Shown here piece by piece: positions 60,893 to 62,742 of a DNA stretch of 64,000 nucleotides. The notes under the pieces are model-generated. The model made no database searches. It was not told where the DNA came from and worked only from the letters and a program-made list of their open reading frames with translations. The stretch is taken from NCBI GenBank assembly GCA_016791475.1, contig JAEUWI010000028.1:1-64000 (forward strand). Reading direction: 5' to 3'. Origin of the DNA: Candidatus Hydrogenedentota bacterium (GTDB lineage Bacteria; Hydrogenedentota; Hydrogenedentia; Hydrogenedentales; JAEUWI01). The first letter of the stretch is position 1, and each line of letters begins with the position of its first letter. The translations under genes and the position numbers were made by a program.

Positions 60893-61613
60893 CGTGTGGT
60901 GCGCCATGCTGATGACGGCGGTGGCGAGCGCCTGGAGCCAGGAAGCGCCGGTGGATGTGGAGGCGCCGGTGGCGCAGCGCGTGCCTTCGGTGACCGAGGA
61001 CGAGAAACTCGCCGAGCCGGACTACGCCACCGTGGCGGCGGACGCGCGGAAGATCGCCGACGAAATAGAGAAGCGCCTCATCGAGTCTGACATGGACGAA
61101 GCCTCAACGCGCCTCTCGGAAAAGAAGGCCCTCGATGGCCACGTGAAAGCGGAAGAGGCGGCGACGGATATGAAAGAAATGATCAAGGTCTGCGAGTCCG
61201 CCAGCGCCGGTGCGGGAAGCGCCTGCAAGTTCAAGCTCGAGATTAAGATGGGCATGAACGCGGGCAACACGTTGGGGCAACTCGGCGCGGGCATGAAGCC
61301 GGGCTCCAGTGGCCTCACGGGCAACGGCCAGTCCGGTCAGGGCGGCGGCGGTGCGCCCTTCGGCATATTTGGTCCCGATCAGTTCGGTGAGAAGTCGAAT
61401 GAGAAGTCGCGCATGCTCGGTGATCGCAAGGCGAAGTCCGACGCGGAAGCGGAAGAGCCAGGCAAGGCCGCGCAGAACGTGGACGAGGTTTCGGCGGCGA
61501 AGAAATTCGATGTGGACTTCGAGGCCAGCGGTGGCGAGCGCGTGATGGAAGAATACCGCGGGCACATCGACCAGTATTTCAAGAAGCTGGCCGAAGAGGA
61601 GACGAAAAAATGA
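60867..61613 (+). CDS. Small exported protein of unknown function in the MoxR operon
   Basis: A signal peptide (KQRLLRNSVWCAMLMTAVAS) is followed by an acidic helical region (DARKIADEIEKRLIES), a Gly-rich stretch (LTGNGQSGQGGGGAPFGIFG) and a charged C-terminal helix. No family recognised. I chose the ATG at 60867 with an AAAGGAACGG site; the frame is open 16 codons upstream. It overlaps both neighbours (26 and 4 bases), so it belongs to the operon and its product probably assists the large coiled-coil protein. Confidence 0.75.
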   Translation: MKQRLLRNSVWCAMLMTAVASAWSQEAPVDVEAPVAQRVPSVTEDEKLAEPDYATVAADARKIADEIEKRLIESDMDEASTRLSEKKALDGHVKAEEAATDMKEMIKVCESASAGAGSACKFKLEIKMGMNAGNTLGQLGAGMKPGSSGLTGNGQSGQGGGGAPFGIFGPDQFGEKSNEKSRMLGDRKAKSDAEAEEPGKAAQNVDEVSAAKKFDVDFEASGGERVMEEYRGHIDQYFKKLAEEETKK

Positions 61614-62569
61614 GGGGCACACGATTCACAATCTTGCAGGGAAATCGTCGGGGTTTTACGGGTTCTACGGTCGTGCCACGCGATCCGGCAACGCCGGTTC
61701 GTGTGCCCGCCGCAAACCCGAATCTACACGTTCGGAGAAGCCACCGAGCGAGCGTCGTGTACCTCCCTTGTGTCGCACCGCCTCCGCGCAGACAACTCGC
61801 AAGTGTCGGGCAATTTTCACTCGTCACACACGAACCGGCGTTGCCGGATCGCGTGGCACGACCGGGTTGGCGTTTAATCGCCCTGGTCACACTTTTTGCT
61901 TTGGCGGTAGCACCCTTAATTCATGCCTCCGCCGATACCAAACCCAAAGTCCGCCGCGGGGCACAGGCCGCACAGTCGACCGACGCCGTCGTGCGCTGCG
62001 CCAACCTGATCTACGCGGGCTCAAAGAGCTCGAAATGTTTCAGCGACAAGTTTCTCGCCACGACGCGCGTGGAGACGAACATCGAGACCCAGTCAAGTTT
62101 CGACCCGGTGAAGCTCAGCAAGGATGAGCTCTTCGAGTATCCCTTCTCGGTGATGACGGGCGAGGGTGTGTTTAATCTGCTGGAGGAGGAGCGGGTAAAC
62201 TTGCGGGCCTACCTCGAACGCGGCGGCTTTCTTCTGGCCTCGGCGGGGTGCTCGTCAAAGGAGTGGGATCAGTCCTTTCGCCGTGAGATCAAGAAGGTCT
62301 TCCCCGAGCTTGAACTGGTGAAGATACCGATGGAGCACAAGATCTTCAAGACGGTCTTCGATGTGACCTCGGTTCGCCTGAAAAAGAGCCAGGGCACCGC
62401 CTCGCTGGAGGGCCTCGAAATCGACGGGCGCATCGTACTGATTTACAGTCCCGAAGGTCTGAACGACACGGGCAACGCGGGGGGCGGGTGCTGCTGTTGC
62501 GGTGGAAACGAAGTGCGCAATAGCCAAGAAATCAACGTGAACGTGTTGACCTATTCGTTGACGCATTGA
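61610..62569 (+). CDS. DUF4159-domain exported protein with insertion-modified N-terminus
   Basis: Residues from about 125 on match DUF4159: KFLATTRVETNIETQSSFDP, FEYPFSVMTGEGVFNLLEEE and NLRAYLERGGFLLAS, a GATase-like fold. Near the end four consecutive cysteines occur (GGGCCCCGGNE). The true signal peptide begins only at residue 82 (RPGWRLIALVTLFALAVAPL). The first 81 codons cover an inverted-repeat element (61668-61864) and look non-native. The ATG at 61610 overlaps the upstream stop as expected for an operon gene; a GTG at 61853 in the right arm would yield a normal signal peptide. Which start is used cannot be decided here. Confidence 0.85.
   Translation: MRGTRFTILQGNRRGFTGSTVVPRDPATPVRVPAANPNLHVRRSHRASVVYLPCVAPPPRRQLASVGQFSLVTHEPALPDRVARPGWRLIALVTLFALAVAPLIHASADTKPKVRRGAQAAQSTDAVVRCANLIYAGSKSSKCFSDKFLATTRVETNIETQSSFDPVKLSKDELFEYPFSVMTGEGVFNLLEEERVNLRAYLERGGFLLASAGCSSKEWDQSFRREIKKVFPELELVKIPMEHKIFKTVFDVTSVRLKKSQGTASLEGLEIDGRIVLIYSPEGLNDTGNAGGGCCCCGGNEVRNSQEINVNVLTYSLTH
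61668..61864. repeat. 197-bp element with perfect 38-bp inverted arms inside the DUF4159 gene
   Basis: Bases 61668-61705 are the exact reverse complement of 61827-61864 (38 of 38), around a 121-base spacer. Each arm contains the small hairpin CCGGC-AAC-GCCGG, a REP-like feature. The element is in frame and has no stop codon in the coding frame. No second copy is in the window. Confidence 0.85.
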
Positions 62570-62590: not shown

Positions 62591-62742
62591 GTGAACGACC
62601 TAAAGGACCGAAGGGACTCAAGGGACATCAACAGTCAACGCGGTATCGTGCCGATACCGAAGCGGTTGAAGTGCGCTCCTGTACCCCGTTTTACGGCAAC
62701 TATAGCGTCCTTCAGGTCCTTTTTGTCCTTTGTGTCCCTGGC
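62591..62742. repeat. Facing GGGACTC / GTCCTTT iterated repeats at the start of the cytochrome gene
   Basis: GACCTAAAGGACCGAAGGGA with CTCAAGGGAC (62597-62626) is a forward iteration of about ten-base units. GTCCTTCAGGTCCTTTTTGT and CCTTTGTGTCCCTGG (62707-62741) is the inverted type. About 80 bases separate them. The right arm overlaps the coding sequence of the signal peptide of the next gene. Confidence 0.6.

Follow-up and report, generated by a model that had tools for sequence, protein, structure and literature searches.

An inverted repeat with identical arms lies within the 5' end of a coding gene in the window, as we call the whole 64-kb stretch of DNA that was analysed, and its position raises the question of what the repeat is, how it came to lie in the gene and from which codon the gene is now translated. 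The gene is a 319-aa ORF on the + strand (61610..62569) encoding a DUF4159 protein (PF13709); its ATG at 61610 is coupled to the upstream stop (ATGA), as in the orthologues, and a GAGGAG Shine-Dalgarno-like sequence (61596..61601, + strand) stands 8 nt before it. Our analysis indicated that the element is very probably a REPIN, i.e., an inverted doublet of REP units, inserted in the 5' end of this gene.

The inverted repeat and its REP hairpins

The two arms, located at 61668-61705 and 61827-61864, are 38 nt each, 100% complementary and 121 nt apart, and the outer ends of the element (61668..61864) enclose 197 nt. The perfect 38-bp inverted repeat claimed in an earlier note on this DNA is thus real, and the note was also right that a repeat element has been inserted at the 5' end of a gene, but it had not recognised that each arm is an REP hairpin and the whole a REPIN. 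No further match to the arm was found within the 64-kb window at up to 3 mismatches, and 0 were found in 100 shuffles. The left REP unit (GTGC-CACGCGAT-CCGGC-AAC-GCCGG-TTCGTGTG; 61673..61705, + strand) points its tag outward and folds on itself, and the right unit (61827..61859, - strand) is its inverted counterpart, with an in-frame GTG at 61853 within its foot. The spacer between them (61706..61826) is diverged, as judged from matches to other copies; the best of these, 83% over 86 nt, comprises the arm and just the first part of the spacer. The Rfam search gave just meaningless long-hairpin miRNA matches, all of them under the gathering cut-offs. The hexamer CGGGTT occurs on either side of the element in the window, and we claim no target-site duplication; by-eye inspection of the flanks of other copies revealed none that was clear or consistent.

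A whole REP hairpin is contained in each arm: the GTGC tag points outward, the foot (CACGCGAT...TTCGTGTG) is constant and the apex is variable. The consensus of the unit is GTGCCACGCGATYCGGCNACGCCGRTTCGTGTG, in which the core is tight and the flanks are loosely conserved. The foot pairs as CACGCGA/TCGTGTG and is followed by a T-T mismatch and then by the apex. Apex pairs 1, 2 and 3 are paired in 54, 54 and 55 of 56 distinct apices, respectively, as compared to shuffled means of 29, 27 and 31, so the hairpin is kept by compensatory change, as in REP and REPIN families. In at least four pairs (L021, L022, L026 and L029) the two arms have different apices, each of them self-consistent, which argues that the hairpin of each single unit is kept and not the pairing of arm with arm. 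Nearly all of the 44 REP units examined carry GTGC as their 5' tag; the canonical tags GT[AG]G or CGTC are absent at the hairpin foot, which places the family outside the GTAG-/CGTC-tagged superfamily. The earlier note had taken the identical arms as the mark of a recent event. This does not hold, because most copies of the genome carry the 33-nt core without change or with hardly any, and identical arms are therefore uninformative on age.

Two variants were also seen. Another Y1 transposase gene of the genome has a different hairpin nearby, TAGCCCAGGGCAACGCCCTGGGTT (L071, ~1330-1367), whose apex is likewise of the GGC-AAC-GCC style, and REPs at 1315 and 2149 of L158, near an RAYT gene, have a far longer apex (CCTGCCCTTCAYGGGGC...) and the variant foot GTGCCGCGCGAT/TTCGTGCG.

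Copies, arrangement and transposase partner

With the region as query, the own genome gave 86 matches, nearly all on the arms. When copies were counted with the foot fixed and exact and the apex free, the own genome held 44 REPs, its congeners G001, G002 and G003 held 123, 13 and 122, respectively, G005 from another genus of the family held 6, and two others held none. The reversed control pattern gave zero matches in the genomes counted, and the exact REP pattern was not found in viral contigs. One named contig with the exact motif puts the REP family in Candidatus Hydrogenedentota. A search for other copies of the arm had been suggested in the earlier note, and more than 40 related copies are indeed present in the genome.

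These copies are arranged in a regular manner. The own genome has 51 units, of which 38 form 19 neighbouring pairs and 13 are singlets. All 19 pairs (19/19) are inverted (+/-) with their GTGC tags outward, the same layout as in the window, and the spacing is 136-201 nt start to start with a single exception of 486. Most of the examined copies are intergenic, commonly 15-90 nt from gene ends and mainly between tandem or convergent genes; a like extragenic placement near genes has been reported for REPs (PMC3733652). The copy at L012 is missing at the orthologous junction of the congener G001, an empty site at which the aligned flanks are ~164 nt apart versus 387 nt, and this speaks for mobility of the family. 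In the congeners, REP units also occur as direct tandem arrays, unlike the inverted pairs that dominate the own genome, and the arrays at L132 (724-1425), L122 (872-1138) and L137 (99-607) have fixed periods of ~223, 117 and 238 nt, respectively.

Genes for Y1 transposases (PF01797) occur in genomes of the genus, and two REP-adjacent proteins of one subfamily exceed the NCBIfam cut-off for the REP-associated tyrosine transposase (RAYT), NF047646. RAYT and control Y1 loci were scored under one rule, which held the foot constant and let the apex vary, and REPs were found within ~1.5 kb of 6/12 RAYT-subfamily loci versus 2/37 other Y1 loci (one-sided Fisher P 0.0014); a stricter motif gave 4/12 versus 1/37 (P 0.010). 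Several REP units surround the RAYT gene at L154 and at L151. In the own genome, no REP lies within 1.5 kb of the two RAYT genes (C10 and C36) or of the Y1 transposase genes. Judging from this association, the RAYT (TnpA-REP) subfamily of the same genomes would most likely mobilise the REPIN family.

The REPIN/BIME-type identity thus follows from the hairpin arms, the scattered copies, the outward inverted pairs and the association with RAYT. The family consists of short, multi-copy and mainly extragenic palindromes in which inverted doublets predominate, and it is associated with RAYT genes as in a REPtron. The 38-nt inverted ends around a spacer of ~120 nt also resemble a MITE, i.e., the terminal inverted repeats of a DDE-type transposon, and both kinds of element are short and non-autonomous with inverted ends. 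A MITE is nevertheless improbable here: each arm folds into a hairpin of its own, with covariation inside its apex, the apices within an element often differ between the arms (the four pairs named above), singlets and direct arrays exist, and the associated transposase is the HuH-type RAYT, an association scored among Y1 transposases. Chimeric fold-backs in draft metagenome assemblies can yield perfect inverted repeats, and an assembly artefact had been named in the earlier note as what could undo its reading. We consider it highly improbable, given that the family of the arms counts dozens of copies, more than 40 of them in this genome, that these copies occur in several separate genomes and that their spacers are diverged and unique.

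The interrupted gene and its start codon

The insert is absent in 8/8 DUF4159 orthologues, which come from two other families at ~60-71% identity and show the absence of the insert, not its exact boundaries or the ancestral n-region. In these eight the same gene lies upstream, the ATG is at its stop or a few nt away, and the signal peptide begins within a few residues of the ATG, so the comparison proposed in the earlier note gave no orthologue with the N-terminal stretch. Because the orthologues and ATG 61610 share the coupled position, the signal peptide was most likely cut off from the ancestral start by the insert. The hydrophobic core of this signal peptide, together with its cleavage region (WRLIALVTLFALAVAPLIHASA; 61868..61933, + strand), was read directly from the sequence and occupies the position of the signal peptides of the orthologues. 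The REPIN would have landed between the ancestral coupled ATG 61610 and this hydrophobic core, and it would by chance have left the reading frame open. Translation from ATG 61610 would then place ~85 residues, most of them derived from the element, before the signal sequence as an N-region, and the export of such a protein would be a matter of prediction. Otherwise the gene may restart at GTG 61853 in the right REP.

The open frame claimed in the earlier note was confirmed: ORF 61610-62569 crosses the element with no stop, and its ATG overlaps the TGA of the upstream ORF. In 14 other copies 25/84 frames are stop-free, which makes it unremarkable that one insertion left the frame open. The codon use of 61610-61852 scores -31.8 over 81 codons, which is non-coding, whereas 81-codon windows of the gene body score +12 to +44. 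The 19 codons preceding the element also score negative, and their coding status is therefore uncertain.

In-frame starts within the element are GTG 61673, 61703 and 61757, TTG 61841 and GTG 61853, the last of which (61853..61855, + strand; MARPGWRLIALVTLFALAVAPLIHASA...) came from the start scan and the predicted fold as the alternative start in the right arm. On balance, we consider it somewhat more likely than not that translation of the DUF4159 gene still begins at ATG 61610. It is also quite conceivable, though we do not favour it, that the right REP supplies the start (GTG 61853 or TTG 61841) and that the element forms an untranslated structured leader before the gene; this reading shares the REPIN identity and differs just in the start used, and a small remainder of probability goes to other possibilities. 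From GTG 61853 the product would begin with a textbook signal peptide (MARPGWRLIALVTLFALAVAPLIHASA), its n-region no longer than those of the orthologues, and the extension ahead of it has the non-coding codon use described above. At the copies L015 and L018 the ORF can be drawn into the element, but this extension seems spurious and an ATG further downstream fits better as the start, and a like conclusion was reached for most N-terminal REPs in three species (PMC3733652). Unlike at L015 and L018, no downstream ATG precedes the signal core in the DUF4159 gene. GTG 61853 lacks a Shine-Dalgarno sequence and is buried in the stem, base-paired, in all of the predicted folds (unpaired probability <=0.01), whereas the ancestral ATG 61610 retains GAGGAG and the coupling, has an open frame and is largely unpaired in the predicted fold (0.80), with its Shine-Dalgarno sequence partly paired (0.32). 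The new start codon supplied by the repeat, which the earlier note had raised, is thus possible and unproven.

The foot of every REP in the family reads ...CGC GTG GCA C outward, and a REPIN inserted in frame would therefore bring a GTG start of its own to the following gene. It is doubtful, although possible, that this GTG has replaced the ancestral coupled start and uncoupled the DUF4159 gene from its operon behind a structured leader.

A second, imperfect inverted repeat was noticed downstream in the window, at 62597-62626 and 62707-62736. It is made of purine-rich 9-nt units (AAAGGACCG.../...GTCCTTTTTGTCC) and occupies the 5' part of the following ORF, which has a cytochrome c554 domain (PF13435); the part of the ORF that holds it may again be a mechanical N-terminal extension.

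Relation to known palindromic repeats

The REPIN/RAYT system has been described previously (PMC3116915; PMC6006769), and the present family resembles it in arrangement, except that its tag is GTGC instead of GT[AG]G. As in the REPINs/BIMEs of Bertels and Rainey 2011 (PMC3116915), short palindromes form inverted pairs with conserved ends and a diverged spacer, show compensatory changes, spread in extragenic space and have RAYT genes nearby. The pairs of Pseudomonas fluorescens SBW25 are spaced at 71 and 110 (PMC3116915), unlike the wider pairs found here. The tag, the phylum Hydrogenedentota and the location of the window copy inside a coding frame, at its 5' end, also differ from known REPINs/BIMEs.

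Other bacteria are already known to have REPs in frame at the N-terminus, and this REPIN at a gene start is a new example. A published catalogue of such REPs warns that many of them could precede the actual start codon (PMC3733652), and the DUF4159 gene shares this ambiguity between an extended protein and a downstream start. As with intragenic REPs and the Rickettsia palindromic elements (RPE), the palindromic repeat lies in frame inside an ORF; known cases add up to 82 residues, and rickettsial proteins with N-terminal RPE-1 inserts were reported to be expressed (PMC3733652). Unlike those intragenic REPs, the tag is neither GTAG nor CGTC, and the orthologues suggest that the ancestral start was upstream, not downstream, of the insert. 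A limited literature search found no REP report for the phylum Hydrogenedentota. Our results add to this phylum an REP/REPIN family with a non-canonical GTGC tag, which is linked to an RAYT subfamily. With its eight uninterrupted orthologues, the DUF4159 gene offers a clean case for the fate of a translation-coupled exported protein after a hairpin lands between its start and its signal peptide.
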